Source: Candidatus Marsarchaeota G2 archaeon ECH_B_1
Lineage (GTDB): Archaea > Thermoproteota > Thermoprotei_A > Marsarchaeales > Marsarchaeaceae
Assembly: GCA_003019535.1 (NCBI GenBank)
Contig: NEXG01000006.1
Coordinates: forward strand, 1-64,000
Direction: 5' to 3'
DNA length: 64,000 nt
Below, in pieces: positions 49,455 through 58,753 of this stretch (positions are counted from its first letter, which is position 1; every line of letters begins with the position of its first letter). Under the pieces are notes generated by a model. It saw only the letters and a program-made list of their open reading frames with translations. It was not told where the DNA came from and made no database searches. Made by a program: the position numbers and the translations under genes.

Positions 49455-50918
49455 ATGCTAGTTGACTATCAAGCTGAGGTGGGTTTCGCGATCATAACCG
49501 TTGGCTGGCCGGGTAGCAGCGTGGTATTCGTGGATGATCCCAAGCAGGCCGAGGGTGTTAAGGCGGAGGCTGGGGGGGAGGTTTGCTTTGTTGGTGTGAA
49601 GAACACCTTAACACTGGATGGCGACATCCTGAGGAGGGCTCGTTTCCCGATGGGTAGACGTGTGGCCGAGTACGCTGTGGGCCCACTCGCCGTTAATATC
49701 TACGCTGAGCCTTGGCCTAGCTATAGGTGGACTCCAAGCGTGGACACATCACGCATAAATAGTGTATGCTCGAAGCTGACTCAACTCAAAGTTAGGGTGG
49801 GTGGCCCCGCGAACCTCTTTCGCCAAATATTTGATGAGCTAAACACGCGGGCGCTGAAGTTGCTCGCCGAGGCTGGGGTGGACAAATGGGTTGAGGAGAC
49901 CGCTACACTATGCGCGCTCTCAGCGCTCGGCTTAACACCCATAGCCCCCCTACTCCTAGATGAGGGGGTAGAGGAGGTTTACCTAGATAGGCCTGGAGCG
50001 CTATGCTACCTTGACCAAACGCGTTACGGTAGACTCTGGTACCCCTACGTGGTTGGTAGATACACCCTCCAGAGGCTTGGATTATACACCGAGCTATCGG
50101 TGAGCGGGGCACTCAGCTACGCATCCAACAGTGTTAAGGGGTATATTCAGACGGGTAAACTGAGTCTACGTGTCAGCGTGGACTCAGAGCCGCTCGCCGC
50201 CGACGGCGGCAGCTGTGTTATAAGGAAGCTATACCACTCAAAGTGGACGCTGGACCAGCTAATACGTAACGGCACCCTGAGCGCTGAGGTGGCCGCGCTG
50301 CTTGTGGGCGCCGTGAGGACGGGCTACTCACTACTCGTGTGCGGCCTGCCTAGGAGCGGTAAGACAACACTGTGTAACGCCATACTCGAACACCTCCCAG
50401 CTGAGTGGAGGAAGCTATACATCGAGGACGTGCTTGAGACAGAGTCGCCCAGCGCGGAGGACAGAGTTGTGCGCTACTCTACAGACTCGGGTTTCAACAC
50501 CGATAAACTACTCGAAGTCACAAAGAGCCTGCACAGGTCGCCCGACCTCGTCTTCGTGGGCGAGCTTCAAACAAAGCAGCAGACACTTGCGGCCGCCATG
50601 CTTATGGCGGTGGGTATCCCCTGCATACAGACCGTTCACGCGACCAGCCTAGAGGGGTTACTGAATAGGTGGAGGAACATCTACGGTATGAGACTCGACA
50701 TTAGGTCGCCGCTATTAGCTGTCTTTATAGATCACCGTGAGGGCCGCAGGGTTGTGCGAAAAGTTGTCTACACCAAGTTCTCCGAGAACTCCGGCATGGA
50801 GTCATTGACCATATACTCGGATGGAGCAATCGATCGGCTGAGGTTGGCTGAGGGGGGCCTTGAGGGGGCGTACATAGAGGGGGTCAGGGCTCTTGGACTC
50901 ACTGAGTTACCATCTTAG
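49455..50918 (+). CDS. Type IV pilus / type II secretion assembly ATPase (TadA/FlaI-like)
   Basis: A 487-residue secretion ATPase that would power pilin assembly at the membrane. The N-terminal domain (~1-110) is unlike known ones; then a conserved linker region (EEVYLDRP) and the ATPase core: Walker A GLPRSGKTT at residues 297-305, Asp-box YIEDVLETE, Walker B-like PDLVFVGELQ at 363-372 (VGELQ where most have VGEVRG), and His-box TVHATS. The 3' end overlaps the platform gene by 26 bases. It is divergent from the pilin operon. Confidence 0.9.
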   Translation: MLVDYQAEVGFAIITVGWPGSSVVFVDDPKQAEGVKAEAGGEVCFVGVKNTLTLDGDILRRARFPMGRRVAEYAVGPLAVNIYAEPWPSYRWTPSVDTSRINSVCSKLTQLKVRVGGPANLFRQIFDELNTRALKLLAEAGVDKWVEETATLCALSALGLTPIAPLLLDEGVEEVYLDRPGALCYLDQTRYGRLWYPYVVGRYTLQRLGLYTELSVSGALSYASNSVKGYIQTGKLSLRVSVDSEPLAADGGSCVIRKLYHSKWTLDQLIRNGTLSAEVAALLVGAVRTGYSLLVCGLPRSGKTTLCNAILEHLPAEWRKLYIEDVLETESPSAEDRVVRYSTDSGFNTDKLLEVTKSLHRSPDLVFVGELQTKQQTLAAAMLMAVGIPCIQTVHATSLEGLLNRWRNIYGMRLDIRSPLLAVFIDHREGRRVVRKVVYTKFSENSGMESLTIYSDGAIDRLRLAEGGLEGAYIEGVRALGLTELPS

Positions 50919-52098
50919 ACGCATCCTGCAACCCCTAGTGGCTACAGTGGGTCTAGGCCTGTACGCGTTAAACCCTGAGCTCGGCCTCCTTATAATGTGC
51001 GCTTCGGTTCTATTTGAGGTGGACTCGGAGGGTACAGTGTACCACTCAGTGCTCGCTTCAAGGCTGCGGGGCGCGCTCGTGAAGATGGGTGTGAACAGAC
51101 CAACCGCCACCGTGATATGTGAGGGGTTATTCGACCCGAAGAGTGGAAGCGGGGCTGCTTATCTGTCTAGCGGAGACTATAAGATTAGGGCGAAAAGCGA
51201 ATACGCCTCCAAGATGCTCATTCTTGAAAACGTCGTGCTCCTCATCTCAGGGCTCTCAACCGTCGGGCTACTCACATGCTACATCATCACCTATATTTAC
51301 GGTGGTTCGAGGCTTGCTACCGCACTCTTCGGGGTGGTTCCCTACACTGTGTTTATTGCAAGGTTCTTCGTGTCGCAGAGGACTGGCAGATTCATGCGTA
51401 GCAGGTTGGCGGAGGCGTTCAGCATAGCACTCATCGCACTCTTCTTAGCCACAAACAGGGAGCACATCGCACTCATACCCTTACTTGGCTTCGGTATGGG
51501 CTCAATCTACACACTATATACCCGTGAAATCAGGAGGAGAGGGGCCGAGAGAAGGGAGAAGGCATTCTTTGTAGCACTCATGAAGGCGCTTGGCAACCAA
51601 GGCTTAGCCGCCAAGGCTAAAGTTGTGCGACTCACATCCGAATTCGGCTCACTCAGAGTCGCTGACCTCAGCTATAACCCAAGCGTCCCAAGCATACTCG
51701 AACACATCTCAACCAAGATGGTGAGGAGTGACCACCGCGTAATCCTAGGAGTATTCGGCAAGGCTCTCTCCGCACTGGGCTACAGGCCATCCTGGTTTAG
51801 GGCTTCGTGGTCGCTACTCAGAGTGTCGGAGCGATTAGAGTCAGAGCTCAGCCAGCAACTCGCTAAAAACGTGCTCGTCGCATCCGTTATGTTCTCCATG
51901 AGCGCTCTGAGCATAACCCTGCTAACGGGTACAGCCTTCTTCAAGTTCTCTTCAGGCTCACTGTTAGGTGTGCTGCCCACACTCTCCTTGGATGCAGGCT
52001 ACCTAGGATTCTCCTACATCTATAAATCGGAGACACTCTACGAGGTATTACTCCTAACACTGCTCGTAGGCGAACTTGCGCTCAGGTACTCCATCTAG
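50893..52098 (+). CDS. Pilus platform membrane protein (TadC/FlaJ-like)
   Basis: A 401-residue integral membrane protein with about seven to eight hydrophobic helices in two groups, separated by cytoplasmic loops. This fits the T2S/F core protein that anchors the assembly ATPase. The cytoplasmic segment after YTREIRRRGAERREKAFF is a four-helix-like region. The gene overlaps the ATPase 3' end by 26 bases, typical of this pair. Sequence is divergent; assignment rests on topology and gene order. Confidence 0.8.
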   Translation: MDSLSYHLRRILQPLVATVGLGLYALNPELGLLIMCASVLFEVDSEGTVYHSVLASRLRGALVKMGVNRPTATVICEGLFDPKSGSGAAYLSSGDYKIRAKSEYASKMLILENVVLLISGLSTVGLLTCYIITYIYGGSRLATALFGVVPYTVFIARFFVSQRTGRFMRSRLAEAFSIALIALFLATNREHIALIPLLGFGMGSIYTLYTREIRRRGAERREKAFFVALMKALGNQGLAAKAKVVRLTSEFGSLRVADLSYNPSVPSILEHISTKMVRSDHRVILGVFGKALSALGYRPSWFRASWSLLRVSERLESELSQQLAKNVLVASVMFSMSALSITLLTGTAFFKFSSGSLLGVLPTLSLDAGYLGFSYIYKSETLYEVLLLTLLVGELALRYSI

Positions 52099-52125
52099 CT
52101 ATTAGTGTCTAATCAAAGGTGTATA

Positions 52126-52389
52126 TTGGTGGAAAACTTGCTTGGCGTACTAAAATTCATCTTGAAACTCCTAATGGATAAGAGGGGTTCACCCCTACTC
52201 GAGGAGGGCTTACTCGTGGGCTTAGCGCTCGTGCTCTTCGCGGTTCTGGTGTCCGCCTTCCTGGGAATATTCAACTGGTTCCAGTCAGCCACACAGCCCC
52301 TGAGCGGGCTCGGAGGGGGGCTTTCCACACTCTTCCAGTCAATCATGCAGGGCTACCTTAAACTCTTCAAGTTCCTAACGGGTCAGTGA
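52126..52389 (+). CDS. Prepilin-like protein with type IV-type signal
   Basis: About 87 residues from the TTG at 52126, preceded by aaaggtg (52115-52121). A basic leader is followed by DKRG then SPLLEEGLLVGLALVLFAVL, which is a plausible prepilin cleavage (after Gly) with the hydrophobic helix and Glu at +5 or +6 of a type IV pilin. The C-terminal part is short and Gly-rich, so it is a small pilin. It lies between the platform and HerA-like genes, with the next start 2 bases after its stop. Confidence 0.75.
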   Translation: MVENLLGVLKFILKLLMDKRGSPLLEEGLLVGLALVLFAVLVSAFLGIFNWFQSATQPLSGLGGGLSTLFQSIMQGYLKLFKFLTGQ

Positions 52390-52390
52390 G

Positions 52391-53860
52391 ATGCTCGAAC
52401 TCCCACTCAGCGGGCCGAGGGTAAGGGTTCTACGCGAAGGCGTCAGGTGGTTTGGTTACACACTCGTGGAAGTCAAGCCGAGGGAGGGAGTCAGCGCCGA
52501 CGCTGCAATCTTCCAGAGGTTTGTTGAGGGGATGCGTAGCGCGGGGGTTAACTACGCGTTCCTCGTTGTTGGCAGACACGAGCTACTTCCTCTAAGCCCA
52601 CCTAGGAGGGGGGGCTTCCTACTCGTCTACTCTCGGGGGTTCGGTAAAAGGAAGGTGGTTAAAGACGTTAAACGCTCCTTCCGACAGGCCAAGTCCCTCG
52701 CCGAGGTAGCTGGATTAGACGTTAACCCCGAAGGTGACGGCGCTCGCGACGGGGAGGCGTGGCTTCTACAAGCGGTTTTCAGGAACATATTGGAGGCCCC
52801 CATGGGTGTGGGTGAGGAGCCAGTGTTGGAGGCTCTTAGGCTGGGGCGCCTGGTGGGTGGGGGAGAGTTCAAACTCAGGGTGGACGACGTCTACAAGCAT
52901 GTGGTGGTTCTGGGTGAAACCGGCTCTGGTAAGTCCAGTTTCGTGGCGAAACTCCTCTCAGCTGTGGGGGAGCGTGGAACTCACTTCTTAGTGTTCGATT
53001 GGCACGGCGAGTACTCAGCCCTGCTCAGGGACAGCTCCACGCTTGTGATAGCCCCAGACCAAGACCTTGGGTTCGATATCTTCGACTACCCCAGGGCCGT
53101 CGACCCCTTCGTGCATATCGATGTGCTCATGGATATATTCACCGATAGCTTCGACCTGAGCGTTTCACAGCAGTTCATCCTGAGAAGCGCGTTGCGCAGG
53201 GTTTTCACAGATAAGGGGCACGGTATGAGTGAAGACGCGAAGCCGGTTACGGTGGAGGACGTGATAACGTCGGTCAACGATCTTAGAACATACTCGGGGT
53301 GGGAGCAGGAGTCAAAGCTCGCCGTGCTGCGAAGGATATCCAAGTTAGCGGACACGGGTCTTAGCAGGATGCTTAACGCCAACCAGAAGATAGGGTTCAA
53401 CGACCTGCTCAGTGAGAATGTGATAGTTGACATAGGGCAGGTGACCGATAACTACTCTAAGATATTTGTGGTGGAGGCCATACTAAAGCTCCTCTATGAC
53501 TACAAGGTGTCTAGGAAGCTTGTGGAGCCCCATGTGATAGTGGCTGAGGAGGCGCGTAATATCGTGCCCTACAGGAGAGCGGAGGAGCCGCCGAGTATAA
53601 TGGAGAGGTTGGTGGAGGAGATGAGGAAGTTTGGGGAGGGTATGGTTATGGTCAACCAGCTACCCTCAACCCTCTCCCAGGAAGTGCTCACAGCGGCTGG
53701 AACAATTGTTGCCTTCAGACTCAAGGGTGGAGGCGAATACGACATACTAAGTAAGAGGTGTGGTATAGGCGTCGACGTGTGTCAGAGGCTGGCGGACCTC
53801 CCAGTTGGGCGGGGTGTTTGCCGTCACCCCCACAATAAGACCGAGTTCTTCGAGTTTTAG
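52391..53860 (+). CDS. HerA/VirB4-like DNA-translocase ATPase
   Basis: A 489-residue HerA-FtsK superfamily hexameric ATPase. Walker A GETGSGKSS at residues 175-183, FDWHGEYS, Walker B HVIVAEEARNIVP near 377-389, and a C-terminal arginine-rich end. HerA proteins pump DNA in repair, and relatives (VirB4, CedB) drive DNA transfer through conjugation-like or import pili. A unique ~150-residue N-terminal domain precedes the motor. Coupled to a pilin gene rather than to NurA, so a role in transport is more likely than repair. Confidence 0.88.
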   Translation: MLELPLSGPRVRVLREGVRWFGYTLVEVKPREGVSADAAIFQRFVEGMRSAGVNYAFLVVGRHELLPLSPPRRGGFLLVYSRGFGKRKVVKDVKRSFRQAKSLAEVAGLDVNPEGDGARDGEAWLLQAVFRNILEAPMGVGEEPVLEALRLGRLVGGGEFKLRVDDVYKHVVVLGETGSGKSSFVAKLLSAVGERGTHFLVFDWHGEYSALLRDSSTLVIAPDQDLGFDIFDYPRAVDPFVHIDVLMDIFTDSFDLSVSQQFILRSALRRVFTDKGHGMSEDAKPVTVEDVITSVNDLRTYSGWEQESKLAVLRRISKLADTGLSRMLNANQKIGFNDLLSENVIVDIGQVTDNYSKIFVVEAILKLLYDYKVSRKLVEPHVIVAEEARNIVPYRRAEEPPSIMERLVEEMRKFGEGMVMVNQLPSTLSQEVLTAAGTIVAFRLKGGGEYDILSKRCGIGVDVCQRLADLPVGRGVCRHPHNKTEFFEF

Positions 53861-53913: not shown

Positions 53914-55761
53914 TTGGCGAAGCTTATAACGAGTCAGGCTTGCTTTGACCCCGAGGATGCTGAGTGGTTGAGGTGCACGGTTGCAGCCGACGTGTACGCT
54001 AGGTTTTTGGCGGCTGGGGGTGAGAGGGTGGTGTCCGCCACAGGGCTTGAAGCCTACGCTTCGCGAACCCTGCATGAGGCAAAGGTGAAGGGGTTGGAAG
54101 TCAAAGCCCAGTTGGCCTCAAAGAGGCGCACACTCGGCGCGCTAATGGAACAGTTGCACATTTCACCAAACATTTTGGGTGACACATCGGACCCCAGACA
54201 CGCGGACACACTCAAATCTGTATTCACACGACTCGCCGAGTCGGGTGTTATAGCCAAACTTCAGGTGGAGAAGGCGGTGTGCGAAGACGACGGCGAACTC
54301 TTCGACGAGGTTGTGGGCAAGTGCGGTGCCTGTGGCTCGAGCGTTGAAGGGCTCGGCTGCTGCACATCCTGCGGCGCCACCCTAACCGCCAGCACCCTCA
54401 GGGAGGCCAAGTGTGGGGTATGTGACGCCCCAATCAGTGTTAAGAGGGTTGAGGAATGGGCCTACGGGCTGAAAGCACGGGGAGAAGCCAGTATTGTGAA
54501 TGTGCCAATAGTGAGCGAATTGGGTTTGGGTGTACCCACTCCTGGCGATAAGGGTAAAACGTTTGCCCCGTGGTTTAGCGCACTCACCGCCTCCATGAGT
54601 TTCGCTGGGAGGGGAGGGCAGGTGGGGGGCGATGTAGGCGCTGGGGGTGTGCACTTCGTTACCAAGCGCTTCGGCACACATTACAAGGAGCTCCTACCCA
54701 AGTTGGGCGAGGCGCTGGGTGCCGCTGGGAGTGATTTAAGAATAGTGGTAGTGGGCCGCTTGAGGTTTAGCGCGAATGGGAAGCCACTTAGTGTGAGCTC
54801 TTCGAGGCTGGTCGACCACCTTGGCTCAGATGCCACAAGGTACGCGTTGAGCCGAATCAACCCTGAGGCGGATATGGAGGTAGACGTGTACGAGCTGCAA
54901 AAAAGCATCAATGAGGAGTTGGTTGATTCACTGGGTCAATTCGCCCAGAGGGTTCTACAGTTCACACACTCCAAGTATGGATGTGTACCCACACCCGGAG
55001 AGCTTCGGGATGAGGACAGGGAGCTACTCGGGTTGATCGATATAGTATACAACAGGATTATCTCCTCTATAAAGTCGCTCAACAACTCTGAGGCGTACGC
55101 CTCACTATTCGAGTTTGCGAAGAAGGCGGCCGAATACTATACACGCCAGGCTCCCTGGAGCCTACTCAGGGTTAACCCTGAGCGTGCGGCTAGCGTGGTG
55201 TACGTAACACTCGAGGCACTCAGGGCGCTCAGCGTGCTCGCCCAACCCCTCCTACCCGAGTTCTCCTCTAAGACGCGCTCCGCGCTGGGTCTACCATTAG
55301 AGGACACACTGAGCCTGGACGAGTTGAAGCGTCCGCTCACACCTGGCGCACAGCTACCGGAGCCGAAGCCCGCCTACGCCAAGCTCACAGACAAACAGGT
55401 TGAAGCGTTAGTGGCCGAGTGTATGGTGGAGGAGAAACCCGAGGTGGACATAGCAGAATTCCTAAGACTCGACCTCAGAGTGGCGAGCGTGGTTTCCGCT
55501 GAGAGGGTTCCGAACACCAAGAGGCTTCTAAGGTTAAGGGTGAGGGTGGGGGGCAAGCTTAGAACCATTGTTTCAAGCATCGGCGAACAGTACACCCCCG
55601 AGGAGCTGGTTGGGAAAAAAATAGTTGTACTCATGAACCTGAAGCCCTCGGTGTTCGCTGGTGTGACATCCCGGGGCATGCTGCTTGCAGCCGAGGGAGG
55701 TGGGGTGATATCGCTGCTTACACCCATGAGGGAGGTTGAGGATGGCTCATGGGTTCACTGA
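53914..55761 (+). CDS. Methionyl-tRNA synthetase homologue with degenerate active site
   Basis: 615 residues aligned end to end with MetRS plus a C-terminal tRNA-binding OB domain. It begins KLITSQACFDPEDAEWLR, where MetRS has the HIGH motif (now DAEW at 15-18), and SATGLEAYA replaces CGTDEHGT. The KMSKS loop is KPLSVSSSR (290-298). Zinc-binding CxxC pairs remain (137/140, 150/153, 167/170). The anticodon-binding helical domain and the OB fold (DLRVASVVSAERVP from ~residue 500) are well conserved. So aminoacylation is unlikely while tRNA binding is likely. Start TTG 53914, after a TATA-like sequence. The same-strand gene that follows is a tRNA methylthiotransferase. Confidence 0.85.
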   Translation: MAKLITSQACFDPEDAEWLRCTVAADVYARFLAAGGERVVSATGLEAYASRTLHEAKVKGLEVKAQLASKRRTLGALMEQLHISPNILGDTSDPRHADTLKSVFTRLAESGVIAKLQVEKAVCEDDGELFDEVVGKCGACGSSVEGLGCCTSCGATLTASTLREAKCGVCDAPISVKRVEEWAYGLKARGEASIVNVPIVSELGLGVPTPGDKGKTFAPWFSALTASMSFAGRGGQVGGDVGAGGVHFVTKRFGTHYKELLPKLGEALGAAGSDLRIVVVGRLRFSANGKPLSVSSSRLVDHLGSDATRYALSRINPEADMEVDVYELQKSINEELVDSLGQFAQRVLQFTHSKYGCVPTPGELRDEDRELLGLIDIVYNRIISSIKSLNNSEAYASLFEFAKKAAEYYTRQAPWSLLRVNPERAASVVYVTLEALRALSVLAQPLLPEFSSKTRSALGLPLEDTLSLDELKRPLTPGAQLPEPKPAYAKLTDKQVEALVAECMVEEKPEVDIAEFLRLDLRVASVVSAERVPNTKRLLRLRVRVGGKLRTIVSSIGEQYTPEELVGKKIVVLMNLKPSVFAGVTSRGMLLAAEGGGVISLLTPMREVEDGSWVH

Positions 55762-55801
55762 GCGCCTCCCCCACACGGGGGAAAAGGGTTGGTGGTGAGG
55801 T

Positions 55802-57079
55802 ATGACCGGCGGCGACCGTGTGGGTAAGGTGGGCTTCAGGGTTTACGGGTGCACGATGAACAAGGCTGACATGCTCGCCGCCAAGGAGTACGTGGCCTCA
55901 CACGGCTACTCTGTCGTTGAGGATGAGGATGAAGCGGATACGGTTGTGGTGTACAGCTGCTCTGTTAGGAATGAAACAGAGGAGAGCATACTCACCCATA
56001 TCAGGGGGCTTCAGGCTCAGGGTAAGAGGGTGGTGGTGACCAGCTGCCTCGCTAACACTAGGCCCGCGAGAATACTCACAGATGCGCCAGGCTCAATAGT
56101 TCTGGTTGGGGGGGACAGTGAGCAAATAGTGGACGCCCTCCGAGCCGAGGCTGGAAGCGTGGTTTATGGTTCAACGAGGCTGCCCACCCCCACTCTCAAC
56201 TCGCTTGTATACCCCGTCAAGATAGCTGAAGGGTGCACAAGTAACTGTCATTTCTGCCTCACCAAACTCGCAAGGCCCAGGTTGTGGTGTAAGCCCTCCC
56301 AAGAGATAGTTGAAGCCGTAAGGAGAGCCGTCGGTGCGGGCGCTGTGGAGGTGGAGCTCACAAGCATGGATAACGCCGACTACTATGAGCCTCCCAACAC
56401 CAGGATAGCCCAGCTCGTGGGGAAGATCGTGAGCTGTGTGAGGGGTAGGTATATGCTGAGGGTGGGGATGATGAACCCCATGGGTGCGTTGAGGATGAGG
56501 GAGGAGATAGCTGACATGCTCTCACACCCCAAGGTGTACAGGTTCCTACACATTCCAATCCAATCAGCGGATGGGGGTGTGCTTCGATCGATGAACAGGC
56601 ACTATGATCCAGAGGAGGTGGTGAGCTTTGTGTTAGAGTTGAAAAGCAAGATACCCGAACTCAGGGTTGCCACAGACATAATGGTGGGCTACCCTGGGGA
56701 GGATGAAGAAGCATTCTACAGGACGCTGGAGGTTATACGTGGAGGGATATTCGACAAGCTCCACGTCTTCCGCTTTACTCCTAGGCCGCACACCAAGGCC
56801 GCTACTCTGAGGCAGCTTGACGAGGCGGAGAAGAAGAGGAGAAGCCTGCTGGCCTCAACTGAGGCGAGACGGGTACAGCTTGAGAAGAACAAGCAATACG
56901 TGGGTGAAACAGTTGACGCGCTCGTCACAGGCTCCAACCCAGAGGAAGCAACAGAGGCTAGAACCACCAACTACATCAAGATACGCCTACCCTATGCTCC
57001 ACAAATCCATGGTGAGTGGGTCCGGGTGACCGTGAGAGACGCCACAGCGGACCACCTCATCGGCGAACTCGCCGAGTGA
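55802..57079 (+). CDS. Threonylcarbamoyladenosine tRNA methylthiotransferase (radical SAM, archaeal MtaB/CDKAL1-like)
   Basis: Adds a methylthio group to t6A37 in tRNA using two [4Fe-4S] clusters. 425 residues: the UPF0004 domain with cysteines 17, 53 and 82, the radical-SAM motif C145-x3-C149-x2-C152 in EGCTSNCHFC, and a C-terminal TRAM domain. The segment TSMDNADYYEPPNTR replaces the bacterial TGxD. Start ATG 55802 lies 40 bases after the MetRS-like stop. Together with the next gene it forms a tRNA-maturation group. Confidence 0.9.
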   Translation: MTGGDRVGKVGFRVYGCTMNKADMLAAKEYVASHGYSVVEDEDEADTVVVYSCSVRNETEESILTHIRGLQAQGKRVVVTSCLANTRPARILTDAPGSIVLVGGDSEQIVDALRAEAGSVVYGSTRLPTPTLNSLVYPVKIAEGCTSNCHFCLTKLARPRLWCKPSQEIVEAVRRAVGAGAVEVELTSMDNADYYEPPNTRIAQLVGKIVSCVRGRYMLRVGMMNPMGALRMREEIADMLSHPKVYRFLHIPIQSADGGVLRSMNRHYDPEEVVSFVLELKSKIPELRVATDIMVGYPGEDEEAFYRTLEVIRGGIFDKLHVFRFTPRPHTKAATLRQLDEAEKKRRSLLASTEARRVQLEKNKQYVGETVDALVTGSNPEEATEARTTNYIKIRLPYAPQIHGEWVRVTVRDATADHLIGELAE

Positions 57080-57085
57080 CACGAA

Positions 57086-57367
57086 TTGAGCAGGCAACTC
57101 ATACTCACCGAGGTGGAGAGGCTACTCGCGCTAAGCGTAAGGCACTACGCAGATGACCCTGAACTCGCCCAGAACGCCCTCGAACACGCTTGGAGGCTGT
57201 GTGTGCACACCGATACACCCATACCGAAAAACCTCAGACTCATCAGATGCACCAAGTGTGGGAAACCACACATACCCGGACGCACAGCCAAAGTGAGGCT
57301 AATAAAGGGAAAAATACTCTGGTTACCCAACAACTGTGAACACATAAAACAAATAAGGTACAAGTGA
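57086..57367 (+). CDS. rnp4: RNase P protein component 4 (Rpr2/Rpp21)
   Basis: Protein subunit of archaeal RNase P, which matures the 5' ends of tRNAs. 93 residues: an N-terminal helical region with RLLALSVRHYADDPELAQ, then a zinc ribbon beginning CTKCGKPHIPGRTAKVRLIKG with a last Cys near the end (NNCEH). TTG start 6 bases after the methylthiotransferase stop; the end is 14 bases before tRNA-Val, whose TATA-like box lies inside this gene's 3' end. Confidence 0.92.
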   Translation: MSRQLILTEVERLLALSVRHYADDPELAQNALEHAWRLCVHTDTPIPKNLRLIRCTKCGKPHIPGRTAKVRLIKGKILWLPNNCEHIKQIRYK

Positions 57368-57499: not shown

Positions 57500-58753
57500 G
57501 TGGTGTACTCCTTAGGGATAGACCCCTTGACCGAGTTCTTTGACGCCCTGGATAACCCTCTGACGAGGAGGTACTATGAGAGGAGGATCAGGGTGTTCTT
57601 CGCTCACGCGGGGATAGAGGGAAAGGACCTCGGGGAACAGGCCTCCGCGTTTGTGCGCAGAGCGAAGGAGGACCCCACCTATGCGTACTACGCGGTCACG
57701 GGGTTCGTGCGCTTCGAGAAGGAGAGGGTGGAGAGGGGGGAGATAACCGCTGGTACACTCACCAACTTTGTTAAGGCTGTGAAGCTCTTCTGCGAGCAGA
57801 ACGATATCATGCTCAACTGGAAGAAGATCTCAAGAAAGCTGCCCAGGGTGCGCGAATACGCTTCGGACAGGGCTCCAACAAGGGAGGAAATACTCAGATG
57901 GATGGAGTACCCCGACCGGAGGATTAAGCCCATCATACTCCTCATGGTCTCCTCGGGTATCAGGCTGGGCGCCTGGGACTACCTCAGGTGGAAGGATATA
58001 GAGCCCATCTACGCAGAGTCCGCCCCCACCAGCGGCGGCGGGCAGCCGGAGGAGCCTGTGGCCGCGAGGCTCACCGTGTACAGGGGGACAGAGGAGGAGT
58101 ACACGACGTACATAACACCGGAGGCCTACCTGTGCCTCAAGGAGTGGATGGAGTACAGGGCGGGCCAGGGGGAGAGGGTGACACCCGAGTCCTGGCTCAT
58201 GCGTGACCTATGGGACACAACCACCCCTAGGGGTCTCCTCCAGGTTAACACCCCGAGGAAGCTCAGGTCCTCAGGTGTAAAGCGCCTCCTCGAGAGGTCT
58301 CTCTTCGCGCAGGGCCTGAGGAAACCCCTCCCCCCGGGGAAGAGGAGGCACGAGTTCCAGGGTGCACACGGCTTCCGCAAGTTCTTCAAGAGCGTGTGCG
58401 AGAAGCACATGAAGAGCCTGCACGTGGAGATCCTCATGGGCCACAACGTGGGCCTCGCCGAGTCATACTACAGGCCGCAGGAGCGGGAGATCCTCGAGGA
58501 CTACCTGAAGGCCGTGCCCGAGCTCACCTTTTACGCGAAGAAGGAGGACCAGGGTGGGGGTGGGGGGATCACGGAGGAGGAGGCCGAGGCCCTGAGGGAG
58601 AAGATCAGGAGGATGGAGGAGGAGCAGAAGAAGAAGGACGAGCAGATACTCGGGCTACTCGCGGAGCTCGGCCGCGTTGTGGAGGAGCTCAAAGAGGAGA
58701 GGCTCAGGGAGCTCTCCGGCGGGAACCGCGGGGAGAAAGGCAGAAGACATTAG
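57500..58753 (+). CDS. int: Tyrosine recombinase / integrase
   Basis: A 417-residue site-specific recombinase of archaeal-virus/plasmid type. An N-terminal SAM-like DNA-binding region (NPLTRRYYERRIRVFFAHAG) is followed by the catalytic domain: Arg155 in SSGIRLGAWDYLRW, His290-x-x-Arg293 in AHGFRKFF, His315 in LMGHNVG, and Tyr323/Tyr324 in ESYYRPQ. A Gly-rich linker and a C-terminal coiled coil (ALREKIRRMEEEQKKKDEQI) extend it, which may drive oligomerisation. GTG start. It has a higher G+C and AGG/GAG-rich codon usage than chromosomal neighbours, in keeping with transfer. Confidence 0.92.
   Translation: MVYSLGIDPLTEFFDALDNPLTRRYYERRIRVFFAHAGIEGKDLGEQASAFVRRAKEDPTYAYYAVTGFVRFEKERVERGEITAGTLTNFVKAVKLFCEQNDIMLNWKKISRKLPRVREYASDRAPTREEILRWMEYPDRRIKPIILLMVSSGIRLGAWDYLRWKDIEPIYAESAPTSGGGQPEEPVAARLTVYRGTEEEYTTYITPEAYLCLKEWMEYRAGQGERVTPESWLMRDLWDTTTPRGLLQVNTPRKLRSSGVKRLLERSLFAQGLRKPLPPGKRRHEFQGAHGFRKFFKSVCEKHMKSLHVEILMGHNVGLAESYYRPQEREILEDYLKAVPELTFYAKKEDQGGGGGITEEEAEALREKIRRMEEEQKKKDEQILGLLAELGRVVEELKEERLRELSGGNRGEKGRRH

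Follow-up and report, generated by a model that had tools for sequence, protein, structure and literature searches.

The HIGH and KMSKS motifs are required for adenylate formation in class I aminoacyl-tRNA synthetases. In the heterodimeric SerRS of animal mitochondria, SLIMP/SerRS2-alpha, a dead paralogue is required for aminoacylation; this paralogue keeps its tRNA-binding part, and the catalytic partner has lost that part (PMC10570016). The OB domain of yeast Arc1p, acting in trans, raises aminoacylation by MetRS (PMC4394549). The OB domain of Trbp111 binds the 3' CA of tRNA, for which Arg75, Lys33, Ser82, Met85, and Phe78 matter, and mutation of Arg75 nearly abolishes its tRNA binding (PMC11286949). 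Sulfolobaceae carry LeuRS-I, a duplicate archaeal class I synthetase that binds tRNA and does not aminoacylate it, yet still makes leucyl-adenylate (described in PMC9437257).

In this study, we examine a MetRS homologue encoded in the window, a 64,000-nucleotide stretch of contig NEXG01000006.1 from Candidatus Marsarchaeota G2 archaeon ECH_B_1. The closest match in both structure and sequence is the MetRS of Pyrococcus abyssi (PDB 1rqg), which has the same domain order but intact motifs. For about 100 residues, the C-terminal domain of the window protein can be aligned to Trbp111 without a gap, and it scores above the cut-off of the stand-alone Trbp111/MetRS-beta proteins (TIGR00399, PF01588; PDB 1pyb, 8vtz); unlike Trbp111, however, it is carried by a full-length dead synthetase and has the equivalents of Arg75 and Phe78 replaced. 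The Arc1p OB domain likewise differs in its carrier, a scaffold of a GST-like and a basic domain (PMC4394549). LeuRS-I makes leucyl-adenylate, whereas the window MetRS has lost the adenylate motifs, and a role can be proposed at the level of a domain. The resemblance to SLIMP/SerRS2-alpha lies in the division of labour, although that system is a class II SerRS of animal mitochondria with one homodimeric ancestor, while the present case concerns archaea and class I enzymes, with two MetRS types of different derivation and an association that we propose. The dead MetRS would give that animal system a counterpart among prokaryotes and class I synthetases. Literature searches, limited to open-licence papers, turned up no account of a dead MetRS like this one, and nothing on tRNA synthetases appears in the paper on the first Marsarchaeota in culture.

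The genomes compared are metagenome assemblies, the key ones being 71-93% complete. They are labelled G000 (the genome of the window, 93% complete), G001 (same genus), G002 (Ca. Marsarchaeota G1 BE_D, a fourth genus), G003 (Ca. Marsarchaeota archaeon FK_Sedi_B_Bin.208, another genus of the family), and G004 and G005 (a third genus).

The degenerate MetRS of the window

The gene is a single open frame of 615 codons on the plus strand, with a TTG start at 53914 and a stop at 55759-55761 (Table 1), and its freedom from frameshifts and stops is as the sequence-only reading had described it. That reading had named sequencing error at the motifs as an observation that would overturn it. An independent genome of the same genus has the same start, and its protein, 86% identical as far as the contig reaches, is broken at the same motifs; an orthologue in the same operon of G003 is more decayed still, so the broken motifs are not a sequencing error.

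Table 1. Features of the dead MetRS gene and its downstream neighbours, in window coordinates
Feature	Coordinates	Strand	Length, evidence and remarks
Dead MetRS (pseudo-synthetase)	53914..55761	+	615 aa, TTG start; ORF, Pfam/NCBIfam; start and broken motifs also in same-genus genome G001
Degenerate class I catalytic domain including zinc knuckle, residues 1-295	53914..54798	+	30/68 conserved columns; 21% identity to the G003 dead orthologue
HIGH position, residues 14-17 (EDAE)	53953..53964	+	Alignments; invariant His replaced by Glu14
CGTDEHG position, residues 43-49 (TGLEAYA)	54040..54060	+	Alignment; Asp replaced by Glu46, His by Tyr48
Zinc-knuckle cysteines C137, C140, C150, C153, retained	54322..54372	+	Present in all Marsarchaeota copies compared
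KMSKS position, residues 291-295 (PLSVS)	54784..54798	+	Alignments; second Lys replaced by Val294
Anticodon-binding helical domain, about residues 325-500	54886..55413	+	PF19303; conserved columns; high-confidence helices in model; Gln342 for invariant Asn, Arg346 and Trp415 kept
C-terminal Trbp111/MetRS-beta OB domain, residues 511-615	55444..55758	+	PF01588, TIGR00399; sole PF01588 match in genome; 66% identity to the G003 dead orthologue
MiaB-like tRNA methylthiotransferase, ancestral operon neighbour	55802..57079	+	TIGR01578; same order in G002, G003, G004, G005
RNase P component 4 (Rpp21/Rpr2), ancestral operon neighbour	57086..57367	+	PF04032; synteny

Conservation was counted in an alignment with 47 intact MetRS, taking the 68 catalytic-domain columns with a conservation of 85% or more. 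Of these, 30 remain in the window protein and 19 in the G003 orthologue, as compared to 53-66 in the intact Marsarchaeota copies. The positions that have changed include the first His of HIGH, the Asp and His of the signature DEHG stretch, and the second Lys of KMSKS, together with the conserved Tyr of the methionine-pocket stretch. The earlier description of the catalytic motifs as lost was thus right in substance, with its registers one residue off: the HIGH position reads EDAE and not DAEW, and the CGTDEHG position TGLEAYA and not ATGLEAY. Profile scores agree with the column counts. The catalytic-domain profile PF09334 gives the window protein 71 bits and the genome's canonical MetRS 487 bits, and the window protein falls below the MetRS equivalog cut-offs (TIGR00398, 150 bits vs 336; PRK00133, 261 vs 587). 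Judged by the HIGH and KMSKS motifs by which an active MetRS is recognized (TIGR00398, PF09334), the protein fails at both, with EDAE and PLSVS. As far as residues can tell, it would no longer activate methionine or aminoacylate tRNA.

The MetRS fold and domain order are nonetheless predicted to remain (AlphaFold2, mean pLDDT 88; best PDB match 1rqg), in a model whose input alignment contained intact MetRS that help impose the fold; it superseded a poor model made from only five sequences (pLDDT 59). All four invariant zinc-knuckle Cys are kept, so the CxxC pairs are intact as first reported. The same had been said of the anticodon-binding domain, but here 12 of 16 conserved columns remain (10 of 16 in the G003 orthologue): the Arg and Trp are kept, while two invariant Asn are replaced, N391 of the G002 enzyme by Gln342 and N456 by Ala406. 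The replacement of the invariant Asn varies, being Gln in G000, Ala in G003, and Ser in G004, and the Arg and Trp stay. The OB domain is the best preserved part, at 17 of 20 conserved columns (18 of 20 in G003), and it clears the curated cut-offs (TIGR00399, 118.1 bits vs 116.65; PF01588, 84.3 vs 27). The picture of a MetRS homologue that has lost its catalytic motifs and retained its tRNA-binding OB domain is borne out.

A second MetRS and a graded series of relatives

The key test proposed by the sequence-only reading was a search of the genome for a second, canonical metG, and such a gene is present on another contig (C45:5126-6826). Its product has the motifs HLGN, GSDEHGTP, and KFSKS, keeps 66 of the 68 catalytic columns, and is without an OB domain. 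Contamination was considered as the source of this contig and rejected. A transposon-like end and short repeats are common to it, G001, and G002, a neighbouring gene is common to it and G002, and its MetRS is 63% identical to an orthologue carried by G003; C45 therefore belongs to the Marsarchaeota group. From its sequence, the OB-less MetRS appears to do the chemistry of tRNA-Met charging in G000.

The relatives form a graded series. G002 has only an intact, OB-bearing MetRS. G004 and G005 have an OB-bearing copy in which HIGH reads YIGR or HIDR, plus a separate canonical MetRS without OB that is different from the C45 type; G000 and G003 carry fully degenerate copies. The OB-bearing copies of the third genus (L048:7401-9461 in G004, L049:7975-10035 in G005) have kept CGTDEH, and in G004 also KMSKS, and they are an intermediate stage of the same decay. 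All five full-length copies, in G000, G002, G003, G004, and G005, lie in the same gene order, metG followed by the MiaB-like methylthiotransferase and RNase P component 4. Running from intact through HIGH-broken to fully dead, it offers natural stages, in archaea, on the way from an essential enzyme to a non-catalytic subunit once another gene has taken over the chemistry, with the target of selection visible domain by domain.

In the MetRS tree, the C45 type groups with the native Thermoproteota enzymes and those of the sister family, whereas the window protein falls with the OB-bearing MetRS of G002, G004, and G005 in a clade of their own, away from the native type and closer to euryarchaeal/bacterial-type MetRS. 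The dead protein had been called a paralogue; it is indeed a MetRS relative that coexists with a second metG, but the tree separates the two types, and it is not a recent duplicate of the active gene. The replacement enzyme of G004 and G005 adjoins a Woesearchaeota sequence on long branches, a placement that we regard as tentative. Because the G003 dead copy is too diverged in its catalytic part to be placed in this tree by its catalytic and anticodon domains (its branch is very long), its orthology rests on synteny and on the OB tree, in which the dead G000 and G003 domains are sisters (95/79) inside a supported family clade (96/87). The miaB tree alone does not resolve the genera. With EF-2, RpoB, and miaB together, G002 branches first and G003, G000/G001, and G004/G005 follow in no supported order, which would fit one shared loss of catalysis as well as several independent losses.

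The OB domain and the proposed role of the dead MetRS

PF01588 was found in 116 of the 117 genomes of the class that are at least 90% complete. The domain occupies a short stand-alone frame in all but G002 and G000, both Marsarchaeota, where it sits only at the MetRS locus. In the Marsarchaeota genomes in which it is found, there is a single match each, at that locus, and in G000 and G003 it is only on the dead MetRS. The relatives without a match are G001, whose contig ends first, and G007, from which no MetRS was recovered. G008 has the OB domain in a frame of its own directly behind that of the MetRS; undetermined bases lie at this point, and the split looks like a break in the assembly. 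The domain on the dead MetRS is thus the only one of the Trbp111/MetRS-beta type detectable in the 93% complete G000 assembly; at that completeness, a stand-alone OB gene could be missing from it. That the domain has been kept even at the cost of a dead 500-residue synthetase suggests that a Trbp-like OB domain matters in these Marsarchaeota/Tardisphaerales hot-spring archaea.

The alignment with MetRS for selection that had been suggested was carried out domain by domain. Between the dead copies of G000 and G003, identity is 21% in the catalytic domain, 25% in the anticodon domain, and 66% in the OB domain; for G002 and G004, of which the latter has a broken HIGH and is otherwise little decayed, the values are 58%, 49%, and 59%. 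Over residues 1-248, dN/dS between G000 and G001 is 0.29 (bootstrap interval 0.17-0.48), and in the catalytic part of G004 and G005 the decaying copy has 0.21 and the canonical one 0.05. Neutral simulations over the G000-G001 distance stay free of stops in about 9% of runs, so the open frame of that fragment is by itself too weak a test. These comparisons point to the OB domain as what selection kept. If the OB domain alone counted, about 500 residues of no use would still have been maintained, with a dN/dS of 0.29 over the stretch open to comparison, so the remainder of the protein may have a function, if only in folding or linkage.

We consider it probable, on balance, that the dead MetRS has been kept since its OB domain is the cell's only Trbp111/MetRS-beta-type module for binding tRNA 3' ends, and that it serves as a beta subunit in trans for the OB-less MetRS. 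In the proposed history, an OB-carrying, euryarchaeal/bacterial-like MetRS would have held the metG-miaB-rnp4 locus in the ancestor of the Marsarchaeota family. Catalysis would have passed to an OB-less MetRS elsewhere in the genome (in G000 and G003 one of the native Thermoproteota type, in G004 and G005 one of a different type), after which the active site of the old enzyme would have decayed while its OB domain stayed. Acting as a dimeric beta subunit, the dead MetRS would bind tRNA 3' CCA ends and help the OB-less MetRS, possibly serving tRNAs generally. On the most economical reading, the chemistry would fall to the OB-less MetRS, and the tRNA-binding domain would come in trans from the dead MetRS, much as with Arc1p in yeast and SLIMP in animal mitochondria. 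As in a SLIMP-like split synthetase, the losses are complementary: one protein is without an active site, the other without a tRNA-binding domain. It is possible, if short of an even chance, that the two genes make up a single MetRS, in which an OB-less catalytic subunit depends on an obligate tRNA-binding dead MetRS of different origin, a pair that arose by complementary domain loss and by way of at least two different replacement enzymes in one archaeal family. Several points count against the main reading: the 500 or so other residues that are maintained, the 93% completeness of G000, the divergence of the G003 copy, whose orthology rests on synteny and the OB tree, and the CA-pocket residues. 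At the positions of Trbp111 K33, R75, F78, S82, and M85, the window OB domain has R, S, A, S, and M, so that Ser82 and Met85 are retained, as Ser586 and Met589, and Arg75 and Phe78 are replaced by Ser and Ala. The R75 and F78 positions are Ala and Met in the intact G002 enzyme, and the R75 position varies in other fused OB domains.

The sequence-only reading had listed chaperone, regulator, tRNA sorter, and operon partner among the non-aminoacylating roles; the data point to a narrower role, given that the OB domain is what was kept and is the only one in the genome. A free tRNA 3'-end-binding protein or tRNA chaperone like Trbp111 or CsaA, with no special tie to MetRS and with the dead body as a mere carrier, is an unlikely account, although Trbp111 does bind many tRNAs through the universal CA end (PMC11286949) and the domain is a separate small protein in the rest of the class. 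In this order, it is found only at the MetRS locus, and the zinc cysteines, the anticodon-domain Arg and Trp, and the predicted overall fold are retained. Less probable by a clear step is a regulator or sorter of specific tRNAs (e.g. initiator vs elongator tRNA-Met) that works through an altered anticodon domain. With Arg346 and Trp415 kept and Gln342 in place of the invariant Asn, specificity may have shifted, but that domain is only 25% identical between G000 and G003, and its Asn is replaced differently from copy to copy, which looks like relaxation and not like a new conserved specificity.

Hardly more probable than a sorter, and perhaps a shade less so, is a functionless pseudogene on its way out. 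The strong decay of the catalytic part and a pace of evolution above that of most neighbours (86% identity to G001, against mostly 94-99%) would fit it. The frame, however, has stayed open in both G000 and G003, genera between which synonymous divergence is saturated, and in G001 up to the contig end; the upper bound on dN/dS is 0.48, and the OB domain stands well above the 21-25% identity found elsewhere in the protein. That the protein is a still-active synthetase with unusual motifs is very improbable. Its predicted fold is intact, but the first His of HIGH, the second Lys of KMSKS, the signature Asp, and the methionine-pocket Tyr are all replaced, and a canonical MetRS is present in the genome.

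The operon and its flanks

A partnership with the adjacent methylthiotransferase or RNase P subunit had been suggested as the new role. The data do not support this: the same gene order flanks the intact MetRS of G002, so the two genes are ancestral neighbours that tell nothing about a new role. In the sister family (L051, L052), a native-type MetRS with a fused OB domain also lies near a MiaB-like gene, and the metG-miaB neighbourhood may therefore predate the change of MetRS type.

Just upstream of the dead metG, at 49455-53860, lies a four-gene cluster whose order recurs in G002 (L050). It encodes a T2SSE type II/IV secretion ATPase (FlaI-like), a membrane protein, a pilin-like protein of 94 aa, and a HerA/DUF87 ATPase that matches the DNA-import ATPase CedD below the cut-off. 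Directly after the RNase P gene, at 57500-58753, is a tyrosine-recombinase-like ORF (weak XerA match), in whose place G004 and G005 have another gene, and which may mark an integrated element. A short GC-rich inverted repeat (CCCCC-acac-GGGGG) lies between the dead metG and miaB, at 55762-55801.
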